From the NCBI GenBank assembly GCA_004173475.1, contig SEBU01000005.1:372001-436000 (forward strand): 64,000 nt of DNA, in the 5' to 3' direction. The translations under genes were made by a program, and so were the position numbers. The notes beneath the pieces were generated by a model. The model was not told the DNA's origin and did not search any database. It saw only the letters and a program-made list of their open reading frames with translations. This DNA comes from Gammaproteobacteria bacterium (GTDB lineage: Bacteria; Pseudomonadota; Gammaproteobacteria; Pseudomonadales; Cellvibrionaceae). The first letter of the stretch is position 1; the number at the start of each line of letters is the position of its first letter. Shown here piece after piece: positions 11,325 to 33,811 of the stretch.

Positions 11325-13190
11325 ATGTCTGATGACGCTCAAGAAAAACAATCCCGTATTAAAGAGCTGATAGCCCGCGGTAAAGAGCAGGGTTACCTCA
11401 CGTACGCCGAAGTTAACGACCACTTGCCGGAAGATATCTCTGATCCGGATCAGGTTGAAGACATCATCCAGATGATTAACGACATGGGGATCCGCGTATA
11501 CGAAACCGCACCCGATGCCGACACCTTATTAATGACCGATGGCGACGCTGCCGCCGACGAAATTGCGGCCGCGGAAGCTGCTGCTGCACTTGCAGCCGTA
11601 GAAACCGAAGCTGGCCGCACTACCGACCCAGTGCGTATGTATATGCGCGAAATGGGTACGGTTGAGCTGCTGACTCGTGAAGGCGAAATAGTCATCGCGA
11701 AACGCATTGAAGAAGGTGTACGCGAATTAATGCACGCAGTGGCTTATTGGCCGGGCGCAGTGCAAAACGTTTTAAACGAATACGCATTGGTTGCCAAAGA
11801 AGAACGTCGCCTTGCAGACGTTATTATTGGCTGGTTAGATCCGGTGGAAGAGATTCCTGCGACCTTGATCGACGAAGATGCAGAAATCGAAGTCGCCCCT
11901 GTTGCCGGCGTAAAAGTAGCTGGCGATGATGACGATGAAGAAGGCGGTGCCGCCGAAGATGAAGAGGAAGCTATTTCAGGGGTAGACCCTGAGGAAGCAA
12001 AAGTTCGTTTTGAAGCGCTGCAAAAGCAGCACGATAAAGCCGCTAAGGTTTTGGCAAAATATGGTTACGGAAGCAAACAAGCAGACAAAGAGTTATCTGA
12101 ATTGGGCGATCTGTTCAAATTCTTTAAGCTCCCTACCCGCCAATTCGAGCCGCTTTACAGCAAAGCACGCGAGACACTAGAAAGCGTGCGCAAAGCTGAG
12201 CGTTTGGTTATGGATTTGTGCACTCGCAAAGCCCAAATGCAACGCAAGACCTTTATCAAGGAATTCCCAGGCAATGAAGTCAACGAAGATTGGCTACCTG
12301 ATTTAATCAGAGCCAAAGTTGAAAATGCCGATAAATTGCAATCCGTTCTGCCTGATGTAATCTCTGGCCAACAAGCTCTCGCGCACATCGAAACCGAAAC
12401 GGGTTTGAGCCTGGCAAGCATCAAAGATATTAATCGTCGCATGTCGATTGGTGAAGCTCGCGCACGTCGCGCCAAGAAAGAAATGGTTGAGGCTAACCTG
12501 CGTCTCGTTATTTCTATCGCGAAGAAATATACCAACCGCGGTTTGCAATTCCTCGATTTGATTCAGGAAGGCAATATCGGCTTGATGAAAGCGGTGGATA
12601 AGTTCGAATATCGTCGCGGCTATAAGTTCTCGACATACGCGACTTGGTGGATTCGTCAGGCAATCACACGTTCTATTGCAGACCAGGCGCGCACTATTCG
12701 TATTCCAGTGCACATGATTGAGACCATTAACAAACTCAACCGTGTATCACGTCAGATGTTGCAGGAAATGGGTCGCGAGCCAACACCGGAAGAACTCGGC
12801 GAACGTATGGATATGCCGGAAGATAAAGTTCGCAAAGTGCTGAAAATCGCCAAAGAACCTATCTCCATGGAAACCCCTATAGGTGATGACGAAGATTCGC
12901 ATCTTGGGGATTTTATCGAAGACACGACTATTGTATCTCCGGTTGAATCAGCAACGATGGAAGGTTTGATGGAAGCGACCCGCGAAGTTTTAGCTGGCCT
13001 CACTGCCCGCGAAGCGAAAGTGTTACGTATGCGTTTCGGTATCGATATGAACACCGATCATACTTTGGAAGAAGTGGGCAAGCAGTTCGATGTGACGCGT
13101 GAACGTATCCGTCAGATCGAAGCCAAGGCGTTGCGCAAATTGCGTCACCCTTCCCGCTCAGATCATCTCCGTAGCTTTTTAGATGACTAA
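11325..13190 (+). CDS. rpoD: RNA polymerase sigma factor RpoD (sigma-70)
   Basis: This is the primary sigma factor, directing RNA polymerase to housekeeping promoters. The 621-residue protein shows region 1.1 at the N-terminus ([21 protein letters not shown]), region 1.2 ([22 protein letters not shown]), an acidic non-conserved insert near 200-220, regions 2.3-2.4 ([21 protein letters not shown]) for -10 melting and recognition, and region 4.2 ([20 protein letters not shown]) for the -35. It ends [10 protein letters not shown] as in other gammaproteobacteria. It is the last gene of the operon and a strong terminator follows. Confidence 0.98.
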
Positions 13191-13378: not shown

Positions 13379-16255
13379 ATGAGACAAAATAACCAATTCA
13401 AACGTAAATTACTTCCAGCGTGTATAGCGTTGGCAAGCTTATCGTCCATTGTAATCAATGCTTCCGCGCAGGAATCCAAGGCAGATGAAGTGACTGAGGT
13501 TACTGTCACCGGGTCCCGTATCATTGCAAGTGGCTTTACCCAACCAACACCAACAACCTCACTGACCGTGGAAGATATTCAAAAGTCAGCGCAACCAAAT
13601 ATTTTTACCGCCATCGCGCAACTGCCTTCACTTCAAGGAAGTACCGGCACACAGGCCATGACCTACAGCACCAGTAGCGGTGTGCAAGGTTTAAGTTCGT
13701 TCAGTCTGCGCGGTTTGAGCGCTATCCGTACGCTGACATTGTTAGACGGTCAGCGCGTGGTAGGCGCTAACGTTACTGGTGTTCCGGATATCAGCCAATT
13801 TCCGCAATTACTGATTAAAAATGTGGATGTTGTCACCGGCGGTGCATCGGCATCCTACGGTTCAGATGCCGTTGGTGGTGTGGTTAACTTCATCACTGAC
13901 AAGGAGTTTGTCGGGGTCAAAGGCAACATCCAAGCCGCACAATCTACTTATGCGGACAACGAGGGTTTCACCGGGCAACTCGCGTGGGGTGGTAGTTTTC
14001 TCGACGACAGATTGCATATTCAGTTGAGCGGTGAACACGGCAAAGAAGATGGCATCCCGCCCGCCGGCTTTGGCTTGGAAGGCCCAGGTGGTCGCGACTG
14101 GTATACCGGCACTGAATTCGCAAACCGTCAAATCAGCGAAACTACTGATGGCAAGCCACAACGCTATTTGATTGATCGCGCGCAAAATAACCAATATGCC
14201 AAATATGGTTTGATTACAGCGGGTCCATTGAAAGGCATCGCTTTTGGTGAGAACGGCGAGCCATACGAATTCCAATACGGCAAGAACTGTGTCGCCAACC
14301 TATGTGAGGGTGGGGATTTAAGTGGTTTGAATAGCGGAGGTAAAAGTCTTGCGTCCAAATTAGAACGTAACGTTGGTTATGCACGAATCGGTTTCGATCT
14401 CAATGAAGACACCGAAATTTACGCCACTATTAATAAGGCGCGCGTTGAGTCAGTAAACTACCCGATTGCGGGAGCCGCTAAAAACGCTAACTTGACCATG
14501 AAGTGCGACAATCCTTATTTGCCCGAATCAGTTAGGGAAGCGTGTGCTGCCAATAACATTACACAATTCCAGTACGGTACGGTAAATGCGCAAATAACTC
14601 CGCTTCAAAATGTTCACCCCACCCGCGAGCAAGAGCGTTTTGTATTAGGTGCTAACGGCAAATTCAGCGCATTTGATACCGACTGGACCTACGACACTTA
14701 TTATCAGTACGGCAAAAACGAGACTGATCTTAAGGTTCACGACATTATGCTCAACAACCGTTACAACGCTTCTATTGACGCCATCGAAGGCCCAAACGGC
14801 ACTATCATTTGCCGTGACCCGGCAGCGCGTGCAAGCGGTTGTGTTCCCATGAATATCTTTGGGAACGTTGCACCGAGCGATGCTGCCTACAATTATGTAT
14901 TTCCAGAAAACGGCCCACATCAGTACTCCCCGCAGAAGCAAAACGTAGTCAGCTTTAACGTCACCGGCGAACCCTTCTCTTCATGGGCTGGCCCCATCGC
15001 GATAGCGACAGGTCTTGAATACCGTAAAGAGGAATATGTCGTTAATGGCGATCCATACGGTAATGGTGTTCGTCCAGAGAGCCCAAATACGCCGGAATAT
15101 CCAGCCGATCCTGTATTGACCAACCCTATTGGTAACCACTGGTTTGCGGGTAATTTCCACTACGCGAAAGGTGAATACGATGTGAAAGAAGGCTATCTGG
15201 AATTAAACCTACCTGTTCTTGATTCAGATACCTTGGGCGAAGCTAACGTCAATGCTGCAGTGCGTCATACCGATTACAGCACCGCTGGTGAAGTGGACAC
15301 CTGGAAACTCGGCGGCACGTGGAAAACCGGTATCAGCGGTCTGCGTTTTCGCGCGGTAACTTCAAAAGACGTGCGCGCGCCAAACCTTAGCGAACTATTT
15401 GCCGCTGAGATCGTGACTAACAACACCGTGAACTACCTCGGCAATAACATTACGGTTCAACAACGCGATATAGGCAATAGCGATTTACGCCCGGAAGAAG
15501 CTCGTAACAATGAATTCGGTATCGTTTTGTCGCAACCAGATTGGGCGCCGGGGCTAAGCCTCTCCCTCGATTATTTCGACATCAGGGTCGAAGGCGTAAT
15601 CTCAAAGCTGTCTGCCCAGCAAGAAGTTGACCTTTGCGTTGCAGGCAATCAGGAATTGTGTGATGCCATGTTGCTGACCAGCACCGTGCCGAACACCAAC
15701 TATGTTCGCTTGCAAGCATTCAACCTCGCCTCTATCGAAACCAAGGGCTATGACATCGAAGCGTCCTACCGTTTAGATTTGGGCGCAGGCACTCTTACCT
15801 TGCGAGCGTTAGGAACACGTACGCTTAACTTCGTCACCGAATCCGGTGTGCTAAATACAATTCCGGTTGATAGCGCCGGTGTGAATACCGGGAATACGCC
15901 GGATTGGAAGGTATTGGCCACTCAAAGCTGGGATACCGACACCTGGGGAATTAGCTTGACCGAGCACTGGATCAGCGACGGTGTGTACAGCAATGAAGTC
16001 ATTGTCTGCCAAACCGACTGTCCGGTAAGTACCGTGATTCATCCAACGGTAAATACCAACGATATGGACGGCACATTTCGGATTGACCTCGGTGCCAATT
16101 ACAAATTTACCGAAAACCTGACTGGTTATGCCAAAGTCGATAACTTGCTCAATAAAGACCCAGCCGTATCACCCGGTACAGGCACGGTCGCTAACCCGAT
16201 GATCTATGACCTGATCGGTCGTATGTACCGTGTTGGTTTACGCTTCCAGTTCTAG
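13379..16255 (+). CDS. TonB-dependent outer-membrane receptor
   Basis: This 958-residue protein has a signal peptide (cleavage probably after ...INASAQ near residue 30). It has a TonB-box-like VTEVTVTGSRI at about 38-48 and a plug domain with the SYGSDAVGGVVNFIT motif near 160-175. A large beta-barrel ends in Phe (YRVGLRFQF). It belongs to the TonB receptor group with a VTGSRI N-terminus that is expanded in polysaccharide-degrading gammaproteobacteria. By family knowledge these import oligosaccharides, vitamins or siderophores; no neighbour fixes the substrate. Several Cys pairs lie in extracellular loops (CVANLCEGG, CQTDC). The gene stands alone with an upstream SD (GGAG) and a terminator downstream. 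Confidence 0.92.
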   Translation: MRQNNQFKRKLLPACIALASLSSIVINASAQESKADEVTEVTVTGSRIIASGFTQPTPTTSLTVEDIQKSAQPNIFTAIAQLPSLQGSTGTQAMTYSTSSGVQGLSSFSLRGLSAIRTLTLLDGQRVVGANVTGVPDISQFPQLLIKNVDVVTGGASASYGSDAVGGVVNFITDKEFVGVKGNIQAAQSTYADNEGFTGQLAWGGSFLDDRLHIQLSGEHGKEDGIPPAGFGLEGPGGRDWYTGTEFANRQISETTDGKPQRYLIDRAQNNQYAKYGLITAGPLKGIAFGENGEPYEFQYGKNCVANLCEGGDLSGLNSGGKSLASKLERNVGYARIGFDLNEDTEIYATINKARVESVNYPIAGAAKNANLTMKCDNPYLPESVREACAANNITQFQYGTVNAQITPLQNVHPTREQERFVLGANGKFSAFDTDWTYDTYYQYGKNETDLKVHDIMLNNRYNASIDAIEGPNGTIICRDPAARASGCVPMNIFGNVAPSDAAYNYVFPENGPHQYSPQKQNVVSFNVTGEPFSSWAGPIAIATGLEYRKEEYVVNGDPYGNGVRPESPNTPEYPADPVLTNPIGNHWFAGNFHYAKGEYDVKEGYLELNLPVLDSDTLGEANVNAAVRHTDYSTAGEVDTWKLGGTWKTGISGLRFRAVTSKDVRAPNLSELFAAEIVTNNTVNYLGNNITVQQRDIGNSDLRPEEARNNEFGIVLSQPDWAPGLSLSLDYFDIRVEGVISKLSAQQEVDLCVAGNQELCDAMLLTSTVPNTNYVRLQAFNLASIETKGYDIEASYRLDLGAGTLTLRALGTRTLNFVTESGVLNTIPVDSAGVNTGNTPDWKVLATQSWDTDTWGISLTEHWISDGVYSNEVIVCQTDCPVSTVIHPTVNTNDMDGTFRIDLGANYKFTENLTGYAKVDNLLNKDPAVSPGTGTVANPMIYDLIGRMYRVGLRFQF

Positions 16256-16420: not shown

Positions 16421-16449
16421 TAGCCACATCCAAAACAAGCCCCTATAAT
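16421..16449 (+). promoter_or_regulatory. Predicted tRNA promoter
   Basis: A perfect TATAAT (16444-16449) is followed by a GC-rich discriminator (GCGCGGC), which is typical of stably transcribed RNA genes under stringent control. At 17 nt spacing the -35 is a weak TAGCCA (16421-16426). It would transcribe the damaged tRNA, the inserted element and the intact tRNA as one RNA. Confidence 0.5.
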
Positions 16450-16483: not shown

Positions 16484-16557
16484 GGGCCTATAGCTCAGTT
16501 GGTTAGAGCATCCGACTCCCTGTTTATCAAGACAAGAGGCGGCAGGTCCCCAGTTCA
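16484..16557 (+). pseudogene. Damaged tRNA copy: 5' part with a 22-nt insert in the anticodon loop
   Basis: Bases 16484-16518 are identical to the first 35 nt of the intact tRNA at 16655. The anticodon region is then replaced by 22 nt (16519-16540) that can fold as an imperfect hairpin, CCTGTT/AAGAGG. The tRNA sequence resumes as GGCAGGTCCCCAGTTCA (16541-16557), again identical, and stops exactly at the T-loop GTTCA, where the multi-hairpin element begins. The T-stem 3' side and acceptor 3' side are missing. It cannot fold as a working tRNA unless it is processed in some unusual way. Confidence 0.8.
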
Positions 16558-16638
16558 CAAACGCACCGCGTTTGAAACAAGGAGCGCAACGCTCCGAAGC
16601 CCGCAGGGTCAAAACAAATGACAATTTGCTTTGATTAA
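16558..16638 (+). repeat. Multi-hairpin element at the tRNA T-loop, copy 1
   Basis: This is an 81-nt element immediately after GTTCA of the damaged tRNA. It folds as four consecutive hairpins: CAAACGC-ACC-GCGTTTG; GGAGCG-CAA-CGCTCC; CCC-GCA-GGG; and a 10-position stem CAAAACAAAT-GACA-ATTTGCTTTG with one mismatch. It ends GATTAA. The same order, loops and end recur at 16822-16900. It does not look like an insertion sequence and encodes no protein. Confidence 0.75.
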
Positions 16639-16654
16639 TTCGGGAATTTATTTA

Positions 16655-16731
16655 GGGCCTATAGCTCAGTTGGTTAGAGCATCCGACTCATAATCGGCAG
16701 GTCCCCAGTTCAAGTCTGGGTGGGCCCACCA
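16655..16731 (+). tRNA. tRNA with CAU anticodon (elongator Met or Ile2 type)
   Basis: This is a complete 77-nt tRNA with encoded CCA. The acceptor stem is GGGCCTA/TGGGCCC, with one T-G pair and discriminator A. The D-arm is GCTC...GAGC, the anticodon CAT is at 16689-16691, and the T-arm is CCCAG-TTCAAGT-CTGGG. The acceptor and 5' sequence resemble gammaproteobacterial tRNA-Ile2, in which C34 is changed to lysidine by TilS to read AUA. An elongator methionine tRNA is not excluded. The first pair of the anticodon stem is a T-C mismatch. Confidence 0.85.
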
Positions 16732-16737
16732 CGCAAT

Positions 16738-16772
16738 AAGCCCCCGATAGCGTTGCTATCGGGGGCTTTTTT
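16738..16772 (+). terminator. Rho-independent terminator after the intact tRNA
   Basis: An AGCCCCCGATAGC-GTT-GCTATCGGGGGCT stem is followed by T6, directly after the tRNA 3' end. Confidence 0.9.
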
Positions 16773-16821
16773 ATTAAGCGTCAGCGCAATTGCGTCTTCG
16801 TTCTTCCAAGTGCCTGGTTCA

Positions 16822-16900
16822 CAAACGCACCGCGTTTGAAACGAGGAGCGAAGCTCCGAAGCCCGAAGGGGTAAACCAAGCCTTAGCTTGGTTTGATTAA
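16822..16900 (+). repeat. Multi-hairpin element at the tRNA T-loop, copy 2
   Basis: This is a 79-nt copy of the element at 16558. It follows GGTTCA and precedes a tRNA 3' end. Hairpin 1 is identical (CAAACGC-ACC-GCGTTTG). Hairpin 2 is GGAGC-GAA-GCTCC, hairpin 3 is CCC-GAA-GGG, and hairpin 4 is a perfect AAACCAAGC-CTTA-GCTTGGTTT. Compared with copy 1, stem 4 differs by paired changes that keep base pairing (A-T to G-C and T-A to C-G) and repairs the single mismatch. This is covariation evidence for a selected structure. Confidence 0.75.
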
Positions 16901-16918
16901 CTCTGGGTGGGCCCACCA
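16901..16918 (+). pseudogene. tRNA 3' fragment (T-stem, acceptor and CCA)
   Basis: CTCTGGGTGGGCCCACCA matches the last 17 nt of the intact tRNA (16715-16731) and starts exactly where the element ends. Only the 3' side is tRNA-like; the left flank (16811-16821, TGCCTGGTTCA) retains little more than the T-loop. A terminator follows. Confidence 0.75.
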
Positions 16919-16924
16919 TAAAAT

Positions 16925-16961
16925 AAAGCCCTGATCGACAACATCGATCGGGGCTTTTTTA
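16925..16961 (+). terminator. Rho-independent terminator after the tRNA fragment
   Basis: An AGCCC(T)GATCGA...TCGATCGGGGCT stem is followed by T6. It suggests that this fragment once ended, or still ends, a transcript. Confidence 0.85.
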
Positions 16962-19699: not shown

Positions 19700-19915
19700 A
19701 TGACGGCGACATCAAGCGACTTCGCAAAACAAGTTAAATCCCTAAGAGAACAACTGCGAATCTCCCAAGAGGATTTGGCCAAAGAGCTAGGCGTAAGCTT
19801 CGCCACTGTAAATCGTTGGGAAAATAACAAAACCCAACCGTCGAAATTAGCCAGGAAGCAACTGGAACAATTTATCAATTCACAACAACAGCAAGGAACG
19901 CTAAAAAATGACTAA
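19700..19915 (+). CDS. XRE-family helix-turn-helix protein
   Basis: This is a 71-residue protein made almost entirely of one Cro/C1-type HTH domain (VKSLREQLRISQEDLAKELGV...VNRWENNKTQPS). It most likely represses or tunes the promoter of the genes that follow. The stop overlaps the next start by eight bases, so it is translated together with the RhuM-like gene. It is the first gene of the defence-type operon. Such small XRE regulators are typical of toxin-antitoxin and restriction loci. Confidence 0.85.
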   Translation: MTATSSDFAKQVKSLREQLRISQEDLAKELGVSFATVNRWENNKTQPSKLARKQLEQFINSQQQQGTLKND

Positions 19916-20962
19916 CCAACAAATACAGCTATACACAGCTGAAGATGGTCAAATCAACGTAGAGGTCACACAAAGTGCCGACACTCTTTGGCTAACCCAG
20001 CCACAAATGGCCGAACTCTTTGGCACAAAACGTCCAGCCATAACCAAGCACCTGAGTAATATTTTTAGTAGCTCAGAACTTCAAGAAGAAGTGGTATGTT
20101 CCATTTTGGAACATACCACTGCACATGGAGCAATACGGGATAAGACTCAAACAAAGGGAGTAAAACACTATAATCTCGATGCCATTATTTCTGTCGGTTA
20201 TCGGGTGAACTCCAGTCGAGCCACACAGTTCCGTATTTGGGCAACCCAAACCCTGAAACAACATTTGGTAGAGGGTTATACACTCAATCAAAAACGCCTA
20301 AAAGAACGCGGCATCGAATTCGAGCAAGTGCTTGCTCTACTCTCACAAACATTGAGCAATCAGCAATTAATTAATGATGAAGGCGAAGCAATAATTTCCG
20401 TTATCAACGACTACGCTCGCAGCTGGAGTTTATTGCAGGGTTACGATGAGCAAAGCCTAAAAGAAAAAACCAGTAAGCAAAATGAAATGCGCGCATTAAA
20501 TTTGGACGATGCGCTCACAGCTATCGGCCAATTAAAACGCGAATTAATTAATAAAGGCGAAGCCACAGAATTATTTGGTCAAGTCCGCGGTGAAGGCCTA
20601 GCCTCAGCCATCGCCACAATCGAGCAAGGTTTTGGCGATGATTTGTTTTACCCAAACGTCGCAAGCCGCGCTTCGCACTTGCTTTATTTCGTCATAAAAA
20701 ATCACCCATTAGCAGATGGCAATAAACGCACAGGTTCGTTTTTATTTTATGGTATTTACGAATCAACCAACACTTGTTGGCGAAACCTGTAGAGCAATTG
20801 ATTAACGATAATACGTTAGTGGCTTTGGCATTATTGGTGGCGGAGAGTAAACCGGATCAAAAAGAATTGATGATTAGATTGGTTGAGCATTTTGTGCTGC
20901 TGAAAAAATTAAAGAATTTAAATTTTCAAAAAACTTTTAAAAAAATTAATGAAAATAAATAG
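19908..20962 (+). pseudogene. RhuM/Fic-Doc family protein, frame interrupted near 20750
   Basis: The first frame (19908-20792) encodes a RhuM-type N-terminal domain (LWLTQPQMAELFGTKRPAITKHL) and a C-terminal Doc/Fic core with HPLADGNKRTG at residues 266-276. After GSFLF the frame shifts. The continuation is in the frame beginning near 20752 and ending at 20962, reading LRINQHLLAKPVEQL then INDNTLVALALLVAESKPDQKE, as expected for this family. The break is equivalent to loss of one base within or beside GTTTTTATTTTA. Either the gene is inactive, or it is switched by slippage, or the base is missing from the assembly. The intact protein would be about 350 residues; family members are often found with restriction systems. 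Confidence 0.8.
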
Positions 20963-20970
20963 GAGAAATC

Positions 20971-23094
20971 GTGTCAAGACTGACAGATTTAATTGCCAAA
21001 GCCAAATCAAAAGATGCACAACTAGGCGCAGATTTAGAACGTGAGTTTGGCATTTTGTCTTCCCGCTTGCCTTTTGGTTTGAACTTTGAACGCCACAGTC
21101 CTGAAGCTGTGGAGCTTCCGTTACGTCCCATCCGTAAAGGCGACAAGGTGCGAGTACTGCCTCCTAGGAGAACAGTTAAAAAAGGTGATCAACGTTTGTG
21201 GCAAGTCAAAGCTATTTACAAAGCATTGAAGACCGCTGATTTGGAATTACTTGGCGCTGAAAAAGCAGAAACTCAAACTGTTGCTCTGGATGATTTAGTA
21301 GTTGTAGCTGAGTTCCGCGATACCATTTACCCTGGCCTCATCAGCACGGGCAAAGTGGAGCGAGGTGGCGATAAGCCTCACCACTCTGTCATCAATGGAG
21401 AGAACTACCATGTGCTCAAGGCATTAACTTACACGCACCGAGGTAGGATTGATGCCATTTATATTGATCCTCCTTACAACACTGGAGCTAAGGACTGGAA
21501 ATACAATAACGATTATGTAGAAGGTGATGATCTGTATCGTCACAGCAAGTGGTTGGCGATGATGGAGCGACGCCTCTTGTTAGCGAAACAATTATTGAAC
21601 CCTACGGATTCCGTTTTGATTGTCAGTATTGATGAGAAGGAATATTTAAGACTCGGTCTTCTGTTAGAGCAGTTATTTCCAAACGCTCGAATTCAAATGG
21701 TTAGCTTGGTGATTAATCCTGCGGGAGTGACTCGTCCAGGAGCTTTTGCTAGAACAGATGAGTTTGTCTTCTTTGTGTTTATCGGCAAAGCACTGGCAAA
21801 GCCTGTACCGCTTGGAGATGATTGGAGGATTAATCCTGACGATAAGCGAACTACAAAAATTTTATGGTCGATGCTTGTTCGTACAGGAACAAACGCGCGC
21901 CGGGTAGATAGACCAAATCTGTTTTATCCTATTTTTGTTAATAAAGACGGAGGATCAATTCACTCAGTTGGAGAACCGCCTCCTATAGGCATTGAGCGTC
22001 ATACAGTTGTTGCACCAGATGCTACTGTTGCTATTTGGCCTATTCGATCAGATGGATCTGAGGGTAACTGGCAAGCATCACCTGCAAGTTTATGGAAAGT
22101 CTATCAGGAAGGTTTTGTCCGGCTTGGTAAATTCACTGACAAAGGAATGTCTATTTCCTATCTAAAATCTGGTGAGCAGCAAAAGGTTCGCAGCGGGTTT
22201 TATAAAAAAGTTGGAAATAGACCTGATGGATCCGTTGTTGTTGAAAATCCGGAGACTCAGAAAAAAGTTATCCCCACCACCGCGTGGCGGATAGGCGCTC
22301 ATGATGCTTCTCGCCATGGGTCAAATTTATTAAAAACGTTAATTCCAGAAAAAAAGTTTCCATTTCCCAAATCTTTATATGCAGTCGAGGATTGCCTACG
22401 CTTTTTTGTTTGTGAAAAGCCCGAAGCTATCATTCTTGATTTCTTCTCAGGTTCGGGTACTACAGCACATGCAGTCATGCGACTAAATCGTCAAGATGGA
22501 GGTCGGCGTCAGTGCATCTCAGTAACAAATAATGAAGTAGCTGCTAGCGAGCAAAAGGCTTTGCTTGAGCAAGGGCTTCGCCCTGGTGATTTGAAGTGGG
22601 AGCAGTTCGGAATTTGCGATTACATTACTAAACCTCGTGTAGCCGCTGCAATTACCGGAAAGACACCATCTGGTGAGGCAATTAAAGGGGACTATAAATT
22701 TACAGACGAATTTCCGATGGCTGATGGCTTTGAGGAAAATGCAGAGTTCTTCACTCTCACTTATGAGGCAAAAAGTGCAGTAAACCATAATTTGGCGTAT
22801 AGCCGAATTGCACCGTTGCTTTGGTTGCGTGCTGGTGCTTGTGGCCATCGTATTGAAAAATTGCCTGTGGATGGTTGGGCACTTGCCGATACTTATGGTT
22901 TGCTTACACAAGTAGATAAAGCAGCTCCATTTACCAAGGCGGTTAACAAGGCAAAAAATTTACGTATTGCCTATATAGTAACGGACGATGATCGACGTTT
23001 TCAGGCAATTGCGAAAAAGCTACCGAAGGGAGTCGAACCTGTGCGCTTGTATGAGTCCTACCTTACTAATTTCAGTTTTGCCAATGGGGAATAA
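20971..23094 (+). CDS. Type III-like adenine-specific DNA methyltransferase (Mod)
   Basis: This is a 707-residue N6-adenine methyltransferase. Catalytic motif IV DPPYNTG (residues 166-172) precedes the AdoMet motif I FSGSGTT (492-498), the beta-class order seen in type III Mod subunits. The start is a GTG with a strong AGGAG site 6 nt upstream. An N-terminal domain of about 115 residues before the catalytic core is unusual for classic Mod proteins, and the region between the motifs (~190-480) is presumably the target-recognition domain. Three bases separate it from the helicase gene. It probably marks host DNA so that the partner complex ignores it. Confidence 0.9.
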   Translation: MSRLTDLIAKAKSKDAQLGADLEREFGILSSRLPFGLNFERHSPEAVELPLRPIRKGDKVRVLPPRRTVKKGDQRLWQVKAIYKALKTADLELLGAEKAETQTVALDDLVVVAEFRDTIYPGLISTGKVERGGDKPHHSVINGENYHVLKALTYTHRGRIDAIYIDPPYNTGAKDWKYNNDYVEGDDLYRHSKWLAMMERRLLLAKQLLNPTDSVLIVSIDEKEYLRLGLLLEQLFPNARIQMVSLVINPAGVTRPGAFARTDEFVFFVFIGKALAKPVPLGDDWRINPDDKRTTKILWSMLVRTGTNARRVDRPNLFYPIFVNKDGGSIHSVGEPPPIGIERHTVVAPDATVAIWPIRSDGSEGNWQASPASLWKVYQEGFVRLGKFTDKGMSISYLKSGEQQKVRSGFYKKVGNRPDGSVVVENPETQKKVIPTTAWRIGAHDASRHGSNLLKTLIPEKKFPFPKSLYAVEDCLRFFVCEKPEAIILDFFSGSGTTAHAVMRLNRQDGGRRQCISVTNNEVAASEQKALLEQGLRPGDLKWEQFGICDYITKPRVAAAITGKTPSGEAIKGDYKFTDEFPMADGFEENAEFFTLTYEAKSAVNHNLAYSRIAPLLWLRAGACGHRIEKLPVDGWALADTYGLLTQVDKAAPFTKAVNKAKNLRIAYIVTDDDRRFQAIAKKLPKGVEPVRLYESYLTNFSFANGE

Positions 23095-23097
23095 GGC

Positions 23098-25665
23098 ATG
23101 AAGTTTACTCTCAAAGATTATCAACGCGATGCAGTGCTTGATTCCTTAGCTAATTTAAAAAAAGCTCGCCGTCTTTGGCATAACGAAACAGACAAAAGTG
23201 CATTTTCACTAACGGCTGTAACTGGCGCGGGTAAAACTGTAATGGCTGCAGCTGCATTTGAAGCCTTGTTTCATGGTGATGATGAATTTAATTTTGATCG
23301 TGATCCGGGTGCAGTGGTTATTTGGTTCAGCGATGACCCTTCATTAAATGAGCAAACACGTTTTCGCTTAATGGAATCCAGTGACCGAATTAATCACAGC
23401 GATATGGTGGTGGTTGAGCATCCCTTTAGTCGACGTAAATTTGAAGCTGGAAAGATTTATTTTTTGAATACTCAAAAATTAGGCAAAAAAAGTTTACTTG
23501 TGCGCGGCTTTGAAGGTGAGGATGATTTAATTACTCAAATGCGCCCAGACGCACAAGCCTATACACTCTGGGACACCATCAGGGAAACAATTGCAGACCC
23601 TGAACTGACGTTGTACTTGGTGCTAGACGAAGCGCACCGTGGTATGGGCGGCACTACGTCTAGCGAAAAAGGCACAATCGTGCAGAGGCTTATCAATGGC
23701 TTTCAAGGTGTGCCAGGTATTCCAGTTGTATGGGGAATATCCGCGACAGTGGAGCGATTTAACAAAGCAATTGAATCTGCGGGCAAACACATCAAATTAT
23801 CGAACGTAGTGGTTGATTCATCAAAAGTACAAGAGTCAGGCTTAATCAAAGATACGATTTTGCTCGATATTCCAGATGAGGTTGGCGATTTTGATACCGT
23901 GCTGGTTCGAAGAGCAACTGACAAGTTAAAGGAGTCCAGCGTAGCCTGGTCTGAATACCTCAAGCAGCAAGATGAAAGTGAAACAGTTGTACCTTTGATG
24001 GTTTTGCAGGTCCCTAATACGCCCGACCCAGATGAAATTGGGCGCGCGCTAGATACGATTTTTCATCGTTACCCTGAATTGCCCTATGCAAGTGTTGCGC
24101 ACGTGTTTGGAGAGCATACCACGCAGCGTTTTGGTAACCGCGATGTTCCATACATTGAGCCGCAGCGAGTTCAAGAATCAACGTGGGTGCGTATATTAAT
24201 TGCTAAAGATGCAATCAGCACCGGCTGGGACTGTCCACGTGCCGAGGTGATGATTTCGTTTCGTCCAGCAGTTGATCGCACGCATATTACGCAGCTACTT
24301 GGGCGGATGGTGCGGTCACCTTTGGCTCGTCGCATTCCCGGTAATGATCGGTTGAACGCTGTTGATTGCCTGTTGCCAAAATTCAATAGGAAAACGGTAG
24401 AAAGTGTTGTTGATTATTTAATGAGTGGTGATGATTCAACTCCACCGCCAGGGCGCATTCTGATTGATTACGTTGAAGTTAAACCGCATCCAGATGCACC
24501 AGAATCTGTTTGGAATTTATTTGCGTCTCTTCCATCCCAAACTCGCCCACAGCGCGGCGCTAAACCAGCAAAACGCTTAACCGCGCTCGCACATGAACTC
24601 GCCTTTGACGACATTTTGCCAAATGCCGGTAGTTTGGCACATGCAGAGATGCATAAAACGCTCGATATCTTTCAGACGAATGCAAAAGAAAAAATTGAAA
24701 TCAAGCGAAATTCCATTTTAGTTGTTGATGGTAAGACAGTGATTGCAGATTTAAGAGGTAAGCAAAAGACATTTAATGAATTCTGGGAGGCTGCAGACGT
24801 AGCTGTTATTGATGATGCATATCGCCGCGCAGCACGGATTTTTAGCCCAGCTATTTCGCACACTTACGTAGAACATTTAGCGCAACAAGTCGCTAGTTCG
24901 GATGATGATCCAGAAGAATATTTGGAGGCCATTACTGAAGCGCAAGTAACTGTTGCTGGTTTAGGGCTTGTGACTGAAGTAGAAGCTTATTTTGATGCCG
25001 AAGCAGACAAACTTGCTAAAGCTTGGATAGAAACATATTCCAACGAAATTAAATTATTAAATGATGATCGCAAAGAAACTTACCGACAGATCATCGAAAT
25101 GAGCACAGAGCCGCAGAGCATTGACCTAGCCAAACCAGAGTCTCGCTATGAGGCTACCAAGGCGAGAGAAAAGGATATTGTTACTGTGTTGCCGACTTGG
25201 GATAACCATTTGCTTTGCGACTCGAATGGAAAGTACCCTGCTGAATTAAATAATTGGGAAACAATAGTTGTCGAAAAAGAAATGAAGCAAAAGGGTTCTA
25301 ATTTTTGGTATCGAAACCCTAAACAACCTGGTCAGGCTTCGCTTGGCATTGCTTATCTTAGTGCAGACCAATATCAAATAGTTCGCCCAGATTTCATTTT
25401 CTTTGTGACACAGTCTGATGGCACTGTCACCGCAGACATTGTAGATCCTCACGGCATCCACCTCGCAGATGCCCTGCCCAAACTACAAGGGTTAGCGCTG
25501 TATGCTGCTCGCCATGGTAATTATTACAGACGTATTGAATCCGTAGCGGAAGTATTAGGGAAATTAAGAGCGCTAGATTTAAAGAATGAATTCGTGCAAC
25601 AAGAAGTTGCTATTGCAAAAGACGCAATAAGTCTTTTTAAAAGCACATTGGCAAATGATTATTAA
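23098..25665 (+). CDS. Res-like DEAD/DEAH helicase-nuclease subunit
   Basis: This is an 855-residue superfamily 2 protein. Walker A GAGKT is at 43-47 and the DEAH box within LVLDEAHRGMGG is at 177-180. A motif VI-like ITQLLGRMVRSP lies near residue 400. The C-terminal part has PDFIFF...ADIVDPHG near 760-780, at the place where type III Res proteins have a PD-(D/E)xK nuclease; here the expected D/E-x-K ends as DPHG without the lysine. It likely translocates on DNA with Mod and may cut by a variant active site or rely on a partner. It starts three bases after mod and is followed 12 bases later by the damaged GHKL gene. Confidence 0.88.
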   Translation: MKFTLKDYQRDAVLDSLANLKKARRLWHNETDKSAFSLTAVTGAGKTVMAAAAFEALFHGDDEFNFDRDPGAVVIWFSDDPSLNEQTRFRLMESSDRINHSDMVVVEHPFSRRKFEAGKIYFLNTQKLGKKSLLVRGFEGEDDLITQMRPDAQAYTLWDTIRETIADPELTLYLVLDEAHRGMGGTTSSEKGTIVQRLINGFQGVPGIPVVWGISATVERFNKAIESAGKHIKLSNVVVDSSKVQESGLIKDTILLDIPDEVGDFDTVLVRRATDKLKESSVAWSEYLKQQDESETVVPLMVLQVPNTPDPDEIGRALDTIFHRYPELPYASVAHVFGEHTTQRFGNRDVPYIEPQRVQESTWVRILIAKDAISTGWDCPRAEVMISFRPAVDRTHITQLLGRMVRSPLARRIPGNDRLNAVDCLLPKFNRKTVESVVDYLMSGDDSTPPPGRILIDYVEVKPHPDAPESVWNLFASLPSQTRPQRGAKPAKRLTALAHELAFDDILPNAGSLAHAEMHKTLDIFQTNAKEKIEIKRNSILVVDGKTVIADLRGKQKTFNEFWEAADVAVIDDAYRRAARIFSPAISHTYVEHLAQQVASSDDDPEEYLEAITEAQVTVAGLGLVTEVEAYFDAEADKLAKAWIETYSNEIKLLNDDRKETYRQIIEMSTEPQSIDLAKPESRYEATKAREKDIVTVLPTWDNHLLCDSNGKYPAELNNWETIVVEKEMKQKGSNFWYRNPKQPGQASLGIAYLSADQYQIVRPDFIFFVTQSDGTVTADIVDPHGIHLADALPKLQGLALYAARHGNYYRRIESVAEVLGKLRALDLKNEFVQQEVAIAKDAISLFKSTLANDY

Positions 25666-31645: not shown

Positions 31646-33811
31646 TTAATTGGTTTTTACGCTGCTACGCGCAATTCCAATATCTGCTTCCACCTGATCG
31701 CGAATTAGCGCCCAGTGAAATAAATTATTTTTATTTTCATCGTAGGAAATATGGTTGTAATGGGTTAAGGGCATGTCGCGGTAGATGGGGCGAGTAATGC
31801 GAATAACCTCATCCCAGTAAGCTAATGCTTTTTCTAAATGCGTAATGGCTTGTTGCTGCTGTTCAGCGTCACCGGTGAGTCTGAATTTTTTTAGAGCTAC
31901 GGCGCCTTTTATTTTTTCGGCGAGGTGTAACCCCAAATTTGCCCAGGTTTTGACGTCAGCAACTTCGTACATAAGACTTGCGTTGCCTTTGGTGTCTATT
32001 CCATTGACGAGTTTCAGTGCTTGATTGTTGTCGCGCTCCAGCATTTCAGCCAGTTGCGGTGGAATTATTTTTTCTGAGATGAATTTTTCACCTTTATTTG
32101 TTTTTTCAACATAATCCCCTACCGATACATATTCGCTGGCCATTGTTTTTTGTTTGATGAGTTGATCAACTGAAATATATTTTGTGGTGTCGCCTTGCAA
32201 AGCTAAAAAACCTTCGCTGTATAACATGAAATCCCATGTTGAATCATAGAGGGACGCTAAACGTAATTGCGTATTGGATGCCAATGAATAAGCGTGCAAT
32301 AAATTGTCGCCTTTTGTGCCGAAGCGACGATTAAATTCGGATTGGAAGGTGCTATCTGGTGTGCTGGCATCGTAAAGCAAACGGCCCCACAATTTGTAGA
32401 ACAACCATTGCCGCTGGAATGCCCATTTCCAATCAACGGGATCTTTAACGGCCGTAAAATAATCTAGCGCAGGAATATAAGTTTCAGAGCCAATAAAATA
32501 TCCACCGACATAATTTTCATGACCATTGAGTTTAATGTGGCTGCGGATAAATTCTGGTACACCCCAGCGCAAGGCAAAGAAATCTTCGTTTCGTACTTGC
32601 CACACCACTTTGTAATTTTTAGGTTGCGGAACAAAATAAGTATCACCTAATTTTCCGCCGTGGACTTTTTCTAACTTTGGTGTGGAATGGCCGTGGGACC
32701 AATTAAATTTCATCTCAACCCAAATTGGCCCTGAGAAACGGTCTTCTAATTTTTCCATGGCAGCGCGCGTTACTTGCTCAACGCTTTTACTTACACCGGG
32801 GTCTGACGATAAACCAGAGGAAAAAGGTACACGATGAATTAATTTTACGGGACGTTTGACTTCGAGCATGCCTGCGATTAACACATCGTCCATCCATTGT
32901 TGGCGTTGCGTTGGCGTCATTTCAGCCATACCTTCGCCATGTGAAATGCCAATGCCGTCCAAGTCCGGATATTCCTCTAGCGTTTGCTTAACAGTTTCGC
33001 GCAAATAGCGACGTACAATTTCTGAAGTGTCACCCGGAACAAAATAATGTGGATAAAAATTTTGCTTGGCGACGCCGTGTGCTTCGGCAAATTCCTTACT
33101 AACAAAAATACTCCAATGCACAATGTAAGTATCAAGCCCACGCTCTTTCGCCAGTTTAAAAATACCGCGATATAGTTTTTGCCATTCGGTGAATTCTTTT
33201 TCCGACCAAGGGCTCGCTTCGGGGAAATTTTTCGGCATGATCATGAAGGTATAAGGATTTAAATTCCACAAGCTCACGACATTGAAGCGGTTCTCTACCA
33301 TCATGTCCAAGAAGGCTTCCCAATACTTCAGGTCGCGAGCCGTCGGTATATGTTGCGAAAGCGCCGTGCTAGCCCTGTACGTTTCCCAAGGCAAATTGTA
33401 TTTGATACCACGAAATTCAAGCTGCGGTGATTGGTTTTCGGCAGCCACTTTTGACAGCGGCACGTGATTACGCAATTGTTCTGAAAGTGCGAGGGCACCG
33501 TAAATCATGCCGCGATTATCGCCGCCAAGTACGGTGATAATTTTGCCCTCGGGGATGATGGAAAAGGCTTCAGGTTTTAATCGTTCGGGATGAACTGAGA
33601 TACTGATTAAGTAATCATATCCCACATGTTTCTTTTGTAATTCGTAACCTTCGTTTTTAATCGTCTCGCTTAGTCTGCGCGCAGCGTAACTTGCTTGAGG
33701 TGACGATTCTTCATAAACAATAGCGACTTTTCCCTTAGATGAATTTTCTGCCCATGCAGGGATGATAAGACCACAAGCGAAAAATATAATTAAAAATAAT
33801 TTTATCTTCAT
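31646..33811 (-). CDS. Secreted glycoside-hydrolase-like protein, family not assigned
   Basis: This is a 721-residue protein with a Sec signal peptide (residues 1-21). Residues ~25-120 resemble the small alpha/beta domain found ahead of the barrel in GH20, GH67 and related enzymes (ITVLGGDNRGMIYGALALSEQLR). From LEFRGIKYNLPW (132) a TIM-barrel-like region follows, with VSLWNLNPY near 179 and GISHGEGM at 288-295, where Glu293 is a candidate acid/base. The C-terminal third is helical. The aromatic, Trp-rich surface fits a carbohydrate site. It does not show the known GH67 alpha-glucuronidase signatures well enough to name it. It lies beside a xylanase, so a role in hemicellulose breakdown is plausible. 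Confidence 0.65.
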   Translation of the reverse strand: MKIKLFLIIFFACGLIIPAWAENSSKGKVAIVYEESSPQASYAARRLSETIKNEGYELQKKHVGYDYLISISVHPERLKPEAFSIIPEGKIITVLGGDNRGMIYGALALSEQLRNHVPLSKVAAENQSPQLEFRGIKYNLPWETYRASTALSQHIPTARDLKYWEAFLDMMVENRFNVVSLWNLNPYTFMIMPKNFPEASPWSEKEFTEWQKLYRGIFKLAKERGLDTYIVHWSIFVSKEFAEAHGVAKQNFYPHYFVPGDTSEIVRRYLRETVKQTLEEYPDLDGIGISHGEGMAEMTPTQRQQWMDDVLIAGMLEVKRPVKLIHRVPFSSGLSSDPGVSKSVEQVTRAAMEKLEDRFSGPIWVEMKFNWSHGHSTPKLEKVHGGKLGDTYFVPQPKNYKVVWQVRNEDFFALRWGVPEFIRSHIKLNGHENYVGGYFIGSETYIPALDYFTAVKDPVDWKWAFQRQWLFYKLWGRLLYDASTPDSTFQSEFNRRFGTKGDNLLHAYSLASNTQLRLASLYDSTWDFMLYSEGFLALQGDTTKYISVDQLIKQKTMASEYVSVGDYVEKTNKGEKFISEKIIPPQLAEMLERDNNQALKLVNGIDTKGNASLMYEVADVKTWANLGLHLAEKIKGAVALKKFRLTGDAEQQQQAITHLEKALAYWDEVIRITRPIYRDMPLTHYNHISYDENKNNLFHWALIRDQVEADIGIARSSVKTN

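Follow-up and report, generated by a model that had tools for sequence, protein, structure and literature searches.

Four-hairpin cassettes at the T-loop of partial tRNA gene copies and their likely kinship with RtT RNA

Two copies of an element made of four hairpins accompany a tRNA gene in a 64,000-nucleotide stretch of contig SEBU01000005.1 (the window), which belongs to a gammaproteobacterium of the family Cellvibrionaceae. Both copies start directly after GTTCA of a tRNA T-loop. We propose, with somewhat more confidence than doubt, that the element is a divergent RtT-like cassette residing in the T-loop of partial tRNA copies, that it is likely co-transcribed with the tRNA, and that it is predicted to be trimmed to a small structured RNA. 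The sequence itself shows that the element sits in the T-loop, that its four hairpins covary, that a tRNA is adjacent, that the partial tRNA 3′ end terminates in CCA, that relatives have tandem copies and that the layout is shared with E. coli RtT. The original prediction was correct in connecting the element with the tRNA T-loop and in regarding its structure as selected; its statements that the element matches no known type and that it may be a small mobile element were not supported. The parts of the locus are listed below, where R2 designates a covariance model built from four close copies.

16421..16449, + strand: sigma-70-like promoter of the tRNA unit (TAGCCA-17-TATAAT), 10 of 12 consensus matches
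16484..16557, + strand: 5′ part of an interrupted tRNA gene copy, with GTTCA of the T-loop as its end (comparison with the intact tRNA)
16519..16539, + strand: 21 nt that take the place of ATAAT in the anticodon loop of this interrupted copy (comparison with 16655-16731)
16558-16634, to 16638 at its widest, + strand: cassette copy 1 (E1), from fold, alignment and an R2 score of 102.7 bits, this copy being among the building sequences of R2
16558-16574, 16581-16595, 16600-16608 and 16609-16634, + strand: hairpins H1, H2, H3 and H4 of copy 1
16655..16731, + strand: intact tRNA with the anticodon CAT, called Met by ARAGORN, may be Ile2 (ARAGORN; Rfam tRNA model, 68.8 bits)
16738..16768, + strand: terminator-like hairpin separating the intact tRNA from copy 2 (terminator prediction)
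16817..16821, + strand: GTTCA preceding copy 2 (sequence reading, alignment)
16822-16896, to 16900 at its widest, + strand: cassette copy 2 (E2), from fold, alignment and an R2 score of 108.9 bits, this copy likewise being among the building sequences of R2
16822-16838, 16845-16857, 16862-16870 and 16872-16896, + strand: hairpins H1, H2, H3 and H4 of copy 2
16901..16918, + strand: tRNA 3′ end past copy 2 (T-stem 3′ strand, acceptor 3′ strand, CCA)
16925..16957, + strand: second terminator-like hairpin, past copy 2 (terminator prediction)

Reading and aligning the two copies confirmed that both have four hairpins and start directly after GTTCA. The copies lie 264 bp apart with the tRNA in between. 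As had been claimed, copy 1 carries the left tRNA flank and copy 2 the right one, with an intact tRNA between them; alignment, ARAGORN and Rfam agree on this. Copy 1 is preceded by ...GGTCCCCAGTTCA of the tRNA 5′ part, and CTCTGGGTGGGCCCACCA after copy 2 is identical to the intact tRNA in 17 of 18 letters (16902-16918). No recognisable tRNA part was seen by eye before the GTTCA of copy 2. The paired changes in H4 and the length difference in H2 were also seen when both copies were aligned. No ORF of at least 80 aa overlaps the region 16484-16918, in agreement with the claim that the element encodes no protein. With respect to the identity of the intact tRNA, its GTTCAAGTC and its position near rpoD are presumably reminiscent of tRNA-Ile2. 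By eye, a large ORF resembling an outer-membrane receptor (13379-16255) is located between an rpoD-like ORF (11325-13190) and the tRNA unit of the window, unlike in the genome G017, where the tRNA directly follows the rpoD-like end. Further downstream, at 19908-25665, a RhuM/Fic protein is followed by a DNA methylase and the res subunit of a type III restriction enzyme, an arrangement that resembles a restriction-modification cluster.

The interrupted tRNA copy at 16484-16557 is the promoter-proximal one and starts 34 nt past TATAAT. Promoter-type sites occurred twice in 801 bases, against 1.0 expected from shuffles. Of the 20 other genomes of the genus, 19 were found with one regular expression to have TATAATG followed 22-44 nt later by the start of the tRNA of the window. 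Since no sense-strand terminator was predicted between copy 1 and the intact tRNA, copy 1, which lies between the predicted promoter and this tRNA, would be contained in the precursor of the tRNA. Copy 2 is located between two predicted terminators and would be made by read-through alone. The enzymes that mature the tRNA are predicted to trim the cassette out of the precursor, and by analogy with the RtT literature it would probably be released as a small stable RNA. In PMC4986893, RtT RNAs of Actinobacillus are reported on northern blots, and Bosl and Kersten 1991 is cited there for the release of RtT from the tyrT transcript and for a link to the stringent response. By the same analogy, the released RNA may have the stringent-response role cited for E. 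coli RtT. It might also act as a decoy for RNases or other tRNA-binding proteins, which is a guess.

The sense strand of both copies folds well as RNA, with z values of -3.6 for copy 1 and -4.5 for copy 2, and none of 200 dinucleotide shuffles folded as well. Folding of the antisense strand is weaker (z -2.6 and -2.8, with 2 of 200 shuffles as good in each case). Two alignments were examined, of 83 and 81 distinct sequences, and 95.6% and 96.0% of their cells pair, respectively; since both were fitted to the model, their absolute values lean towards structure. The original view that the structure is selected is borne out by the covariation of the stems, in which 24 of 25 and 22 of 25 pairs are changed on both sides. 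The covariation score amounts to 0.54 and 0.62 versus 0.14 in shuffles and was reached by none of 500 shuffles, and sliding the pairing partners abolishes it. The covariation is thus kept when more copies are aligned, a point on which the prediction could have failed. In alignment A5, 12 of 500 shuffles reached one of the five covariation measures, namely that for further pair types.

The tRNA context of the relatives was read in 119 loci with 169 hits, tandem copies being counted; the loci were taken best scores first among the matches listed, so the 169 hits are not a random sample. The prediction had left open whether further matches would be flanked by tRNAs or scattered, and they are not scattered: 141 of the 169 hits lie downstream of a same-strand ARAGORN tRNA within the stretch read, with a median gap of 81 nt. 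The isotypes of these upstream tRNAs are Ser (31), Phe (28), Met (21), Arg (20), Leu (19), Val (10), Pro (9) and Lys (3). The remaining 28 hits have no upstream tRNA within the stretch read, and for 5 of them less than 600 nt were available. Among the 140 hits with a tRNA within 700 nt (one of the 141, with a gap of 2890 nt, was dropped), the 3′ flank is the 3′ end of the hit's own tRNA in 94 cases, compared with 35 of 700 pairings with other isotypes. Part of the tRNA 5′ side is retained, by eye, in copy 1 of the window and in L027, L046, L066 and L136. Arrays of three units with a spacing of 174-191 bp were found, for example, in L017, L068, L093, L113 and L124, and in 54 of 99 arrays with a tRNA the first copy stands behind a terminator-like hairpin. 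Copy 2 of the window has this position too, which counts against the reading that we favour. A closing helix P1 formed by the 5′ flank and the partial tRNA 3′ end was considered as a general feature and rejected; it is weak in numbers (19 of 138 hits, two further hits having been dropped from the 140, versus 44 of 690 controls) and striking in L017, L024 and E. coli. In L017 (1425-1500 and the next units) a long palindrome consisting of the tRNA 3′ end, a terminator and the inverted tRNA 3′ end is repeated with each unit. In L177 (genome G004) and L184 (G001), a copy of the 5′ half up to the anticodon precedes the same tRNA by 27 nt and is not accompanied by a cassette.

Relatives of the cassette have a patchy distribution. 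Within the family, the model R2 detected them at E 0.1 in 73 of 144 genomes, which represent 18 of 32 genera; in a sample from the order, at E 0.001, the figures were 82 of 390 genomes and 34 of 142 genera. In a sample of 369 genomes from the class, a broader covariance model from 86 sequences, R3, gave matches in 14, including the genome of the window. Stricter filters were used in the family, order and class searches with the models, and weak matches were lost. Of the loci from the class-wide search with R3, 19 of 30 were read and 18 of these 19 have a same-strand tRNA; where the position was read directly, the cassette is located downstream of the tRNA in 11 of 12 cases and upstream in one (L157). 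Within the genus, BLAST found the element in 3 of 21 genomes and the tRNA itself in all 21, and a fourth genome (G003) has a match to the covariance model at E 0.09. Three BLAST matches in the window's own genome were rejected as cassettes: L002 and L004 fall on tRNA-Val and tRNA-Arg, and L003 is the terminator hairpin of the window itself. An exact H3-H4 pattern yielded seven matches in six genome stretches, two of which (G017 and G024) are not new genomes but were already among the relatives. A same-strand tRNA is located upstream of four of the seven matches within the stretch read, and five of the seven run into a tRNA 3′ end with CCA; the exceptions are L227, which has only T-stem letters, and L229, which is without a tRNA.

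The claim that the element matches no known type is not supported, as its anatomy is that of the RtT RNA of E. coli. In RtT RNA (rttR, RF00391) of the tyrT operon, GGTTCGA is followed by four hairpins and then by AATCC, which belongs to a partial tRNA 3′ end with CCA; RtT shares with the cassettes the tandem repetition behind an intact tRNA and many GNA loops. In E. coli K-12, rttR is located behind tyrV; the repeat (L072) is composed of GGTTCGA, four hairpins, AATCC and the tRNA 3′ end with a period of 178 bp, and the annotated RttR RNA ends at the CCA of the partial tRNA. In the window element, too, GGTTC(G)A and the T-stem 3′ strand enclose four hairpins. A unit linked to the intact tRNA and ending in its 3′ end, which is typical of RtT, is found in copy 2 and in the same 94 of 140 relatives, while copy 1 is without the 3′ end. 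The units in L017, L093 and L124 are 178-190 bp apart, and the tandem unit of RtT measures about 180 bp. The differences are also clear. The window copies score below the cut-off of the RtT model, and their hairpins are unlike those of RtT in sequence and length. Window-type cassettes also stand behind Met/Ile2, Phe, Arg, Leu, Pro, Val and Lys tRNAs and often follow a terminator-like hairpin; one window copy precedes the tRNA, and the closing helix is weak.

Searches with the models give a similar picture. RF00391 (gathering score 45 bits) did not match the window, where the tRNA is the sole Rfam match, and gave nothing up to E=1 in the window stretch L001; among the order relatives searched, its gathering score was reached in 3 of 37. 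In the reverse direction, R3 matched all three rtT copies of E. coli in register at 15.7 bits and E 0.044 each, which is near noise, the same search giving other chance-like matches at E 0.095 and 0.43. RtT loci in L073-L075 were matched by R3 at E 0.2-0.65. With R2, one of the three rtT copies was found (E 0.06) beside two off-register matches at E 0.12. One locus in contig G640:C35 was found by both R3 (33319-33411) and RF00391 (33306-33446, 34.1 bits, below the cut-off). Among 143 genomes sampled from the class, RF00391 detected RtT in 26 at E 0.001, seven of them above the cut-off. Twenty RF00391 loci were read by eye, seven over the cut-off and 13 below it, and in 19 of them the same layout follows a tRNA for Ser, Gln or Tyr.

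A second Rfam family, AaHKsRNA22 (RF02902), matches cassettes in register, with 31.5 bits in the close relative L013 and 31.2 bits in L050 against a cut-off of 39.8; in contig G228:C6, a locus found by R2 (18-107) is also found by RF02902 (15-114) at 46.7 bits, above the cut-off. The window copies, in contrast, are unmatched by this family at its gathering score of 39.8 bits and up to E=1 in L001. RF02902 was detected in 12 of 145 order genomes at E 0.01, in five of them above the cut-off. Hairpin clusters of the RF02902 type at L197 1501-1599 and L201 1501-1600 lie outside a tRNA within an imperfect repeat with CTTTCTTT and CAAAGAAA ends. By the Rfam cut-offs the window copies are members of neither RF00391 nor RF02902. 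It is likely that the window element belongs together with RtT, and with AaHKsRNA22 at least in part, each being a branch of one tRNA-linked kind of cassette.

Earlier knowledge of RtT comes mostly from a single operon of E. coli and from Pasteurellaceae. REP/BIME palindromes are intergenic hairpins with features at the DNA level. The cassettes share with these palindromes the intergenic hairpins but differ in being tied to tRNA T-loops, and the genome of the window has no Y1 transposase gene at E 1e-10. Sequences resembling rtT have been described within BIMEs in enterobacteria (PMC2965389). Compared by layout alone, copy 2 resembles rrA, rrB and rrF, which PMC8144298 presents as sRNAs between the dual terminators of E. 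coli rRNA operons, in that it lies between two predicted terminators behind a stable-RNA gene. A narrow search of the open-licence literature revealed no account of such cassettes other than those on RtT and BIMEs.

The stems speak in part against the reading of the cassette as an RNA, since rare wobble pairs together with A-C mismatches are unlike typical RNA under selection. The cells of H1, H2 and H4 comprise 3105 Watson-Crick pairs, 30 G-U, 15 A-C and 107 other combinations (58 of the 107 being A-G in H2). The control consisted of 74 tRNAs of these loci, whose acceptor and T stems comprise 846 Watson-Crick pairs, 38 G-U, no A-C and four others. The wobble share of the standard pairs is therefore 30 of 3135 in the cassette versus 38 of 884 in the tRNA stems, and the ratio of G-U to A-C is 30:15 versus 38:0 (Fisher p 3e-5). 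H3, with 101 G-U cells and 33 G-G, was left out of this count because its outer model pair is mostly G-U and possibly not real. The loops are unusual as well. In H3, 135 of 150 triloops are GNA and 158 of 160 loops are closed by C-G. GNA accounts for 19 of 60 triloops in H1 and 40 of 91 in H2, and GNNA for 44 of 59 and 14 of 20 tetraloops, respectively. The loops of H4 are CNNA-like (CCTA, CTTA etc.), with GNNA in 3 of 136 tetraloops. Among hairpins of at least 5 bp, 45 of 120 triloops of the sense strand are GNA, compared with 5 of 120 of the antisense strand and 50 of 611 in the remaining hairpins of these loci; the corresponding values for GNNA are 57 of 208, 0 of 208 and 42 of 642. Terminator-like hairpins have GNA in 0 of 7 and GNNA in 0 of 13 cases. 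RtT loci show the same bias, with GNA in 35 of 54 triloops on the sense strand and 0 of 54 on the antisense strand (hairpins of at least 4 bp). The window copies follow this loop rule only in part: H3 has GCA and GAA and H2 of copy 2 has GAA, whereas H1 has ACC in both copies and H2 of copy 1 has CAA. The loops thus mark the tRNA-sense strand, but on their own they do not tell RNA from DNA.

The rare wobble in H1, H2 and H4 and the loops of H1-H3 leaning to GNA or GNNA would fit a role at the DNA level, instead of or beside RNA. The main rival of the RNA reading is accordingly that the cassette acts as DNA, as a row of very stable mini-hairpins predicted for the single-stranded sense strand, with GNA/GNNA loops closed by C-G, which would be the target of a DNA-binding or single-strand-acting enzyme and would in this way have spread into T-loops. 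We consider this possible but doubtful. According to PMC4686876, hairpins with GNA or GNNA loops and G-C stems are extraordinarily stable as DNA. A-C is half as frequent as G-U, and 8 of 12 RF02902 loci read are without an upstream tRNA call (for L195, only 14 nt upstream were available). The same numbers can, however, be turned against it: the wobble count omits the 101 G-U cells of H3 and takes no account of the 107 other mismatches, and 30:15 still leans to G-U (p 0.036 against 1:1), which is expected of RNA or of sense-strand DNA. Nor is the loop rule general, given the H4 loops, the H1 and H2 triloops and ACC in H1 of the window. The GNNA loops show no preference for GNRA (24 GNRA and 33 GNYA), but the control stands at 26:16 and the difference reaches only p 0.07. 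Y1 transposases were rejected as movers, since such genes (Y1_Tnp, RAYT) are weakly associated, occurring in 44 of 73 cassette genomes versus 30 of 71 others (p 0.045, uncorrected for kinship), and are lacking at E 1e-10 in the genome of the window, G000. Copies are also stable at their locus within the genus, and an RNA product has been reported for RtT. A wider form of this reading, which we regard as unlikely, is that the T-loops of gammaproteobacterial tRNAs are the address of an old family of cassettes selected for ultra-stable single-stranded DNA mini-hairpins with GNA/GNNA loops and strict Watson-Crick stems on the tRNA-sense strand, RtT being one branch and the RNA a by-product.

How the copies are inherited bears on the other two explanations. 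The comparisons covered the 140 hits that have a tRNA no more than 700 nt away. Within a genus, identity amounts to 81% for copies at the same tRNA (282 pairs) and to 58% for those at different tRNAs (679 pairs); copies at different tRNAs of one genome are 63% identical (60 pairs), and copies within one array have a mean identity of 0.865 (49 pairs). Inheritance in place thus predominates, with some resemblance among the copies of one genome. The cassette is not a fast mover, although its patchy distribution and its spread over many tRNAs need some past movement or exchange. The idea of a small mobile element is not supported: neither an integrase of its own nor copies moving between loci in close genomes were found, there is no ORF of at least 80 aa, blastn with copy 2 gave no match among phages and plasmids at E 0.1, the exact H3-H4 pattern, the one pattern used there, gave none among viral contigs, and within the genus the copies track the tRNA locus. 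The array identity and the patchy distribution would also suit a neutral origin, in which the tRNA 3′ end and its flank are duplicated in tandem and the palindromes are kept perfect not by selection but by template-switch correction at replication. In its favour, very close copies (44 sequence pairs with an identity of 90% or more) show one-sided changes without a G-U bias (7 G-U, 8 A-C, 7 other) and three two-sided Watson-Crick changes, two-sided changes prevail in more distant pairs, and an inverted copy of the tRNA 3′ end is present in the 5′ flank of 55 of 140 hits versus 35 of 700 controls. We nevertheless judge this origin improbable. The four hairpins keep a fixed order with conserved loops and linkers across families, and related cassettes stand behind other tRNAs outside the order, which is hard to obtain without selection or a copying mechanism. 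The cassette could also be the attachment-site scar of an island whose integrase targets tRNAs, since the tRNA part of copy 1 is altered at the anticodon loop and the same tRNA is an island target in the genus. In the genome G008, a tyrosine integrase gene (PF00589, PF13356; L007 1600-3083) is located beside the anticodon-loop half of the same tRNA, recognised by eye, while about 17 kb separate the intact tRNA from the cassette and tRNA half, so that an island has entered this tRNA. The junction of the cassette is the T-loop, however, and not the anticodon loop at which the G008 island joins; by eye, the cassette of G008 stands beyond the island, following a tRNA half and a terminator-like hairpin, and hence does not look like a part of the island. 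We regard a scar as very improbable.

The RtT-like cassette that we favour extends the four-hairpin T-loop layout to tRNAs for at least eight amino acids, beyond the known setting of RtT. Within one family, roughly half of the genomes searched have this layout, which also occurs in genomes beyond the order of that family. Two Rfam families that share no clan, RF00391 and RF02902, touch this kind of cassette. For annotators, units of the cassette are broken tRNA copies and have to be treated with care. Stems and part of the loops follow an unusual rule, which poses a clean RNA-versus-DNA question, and well over a hundred natural variants can be used for finding the function of the cassette.
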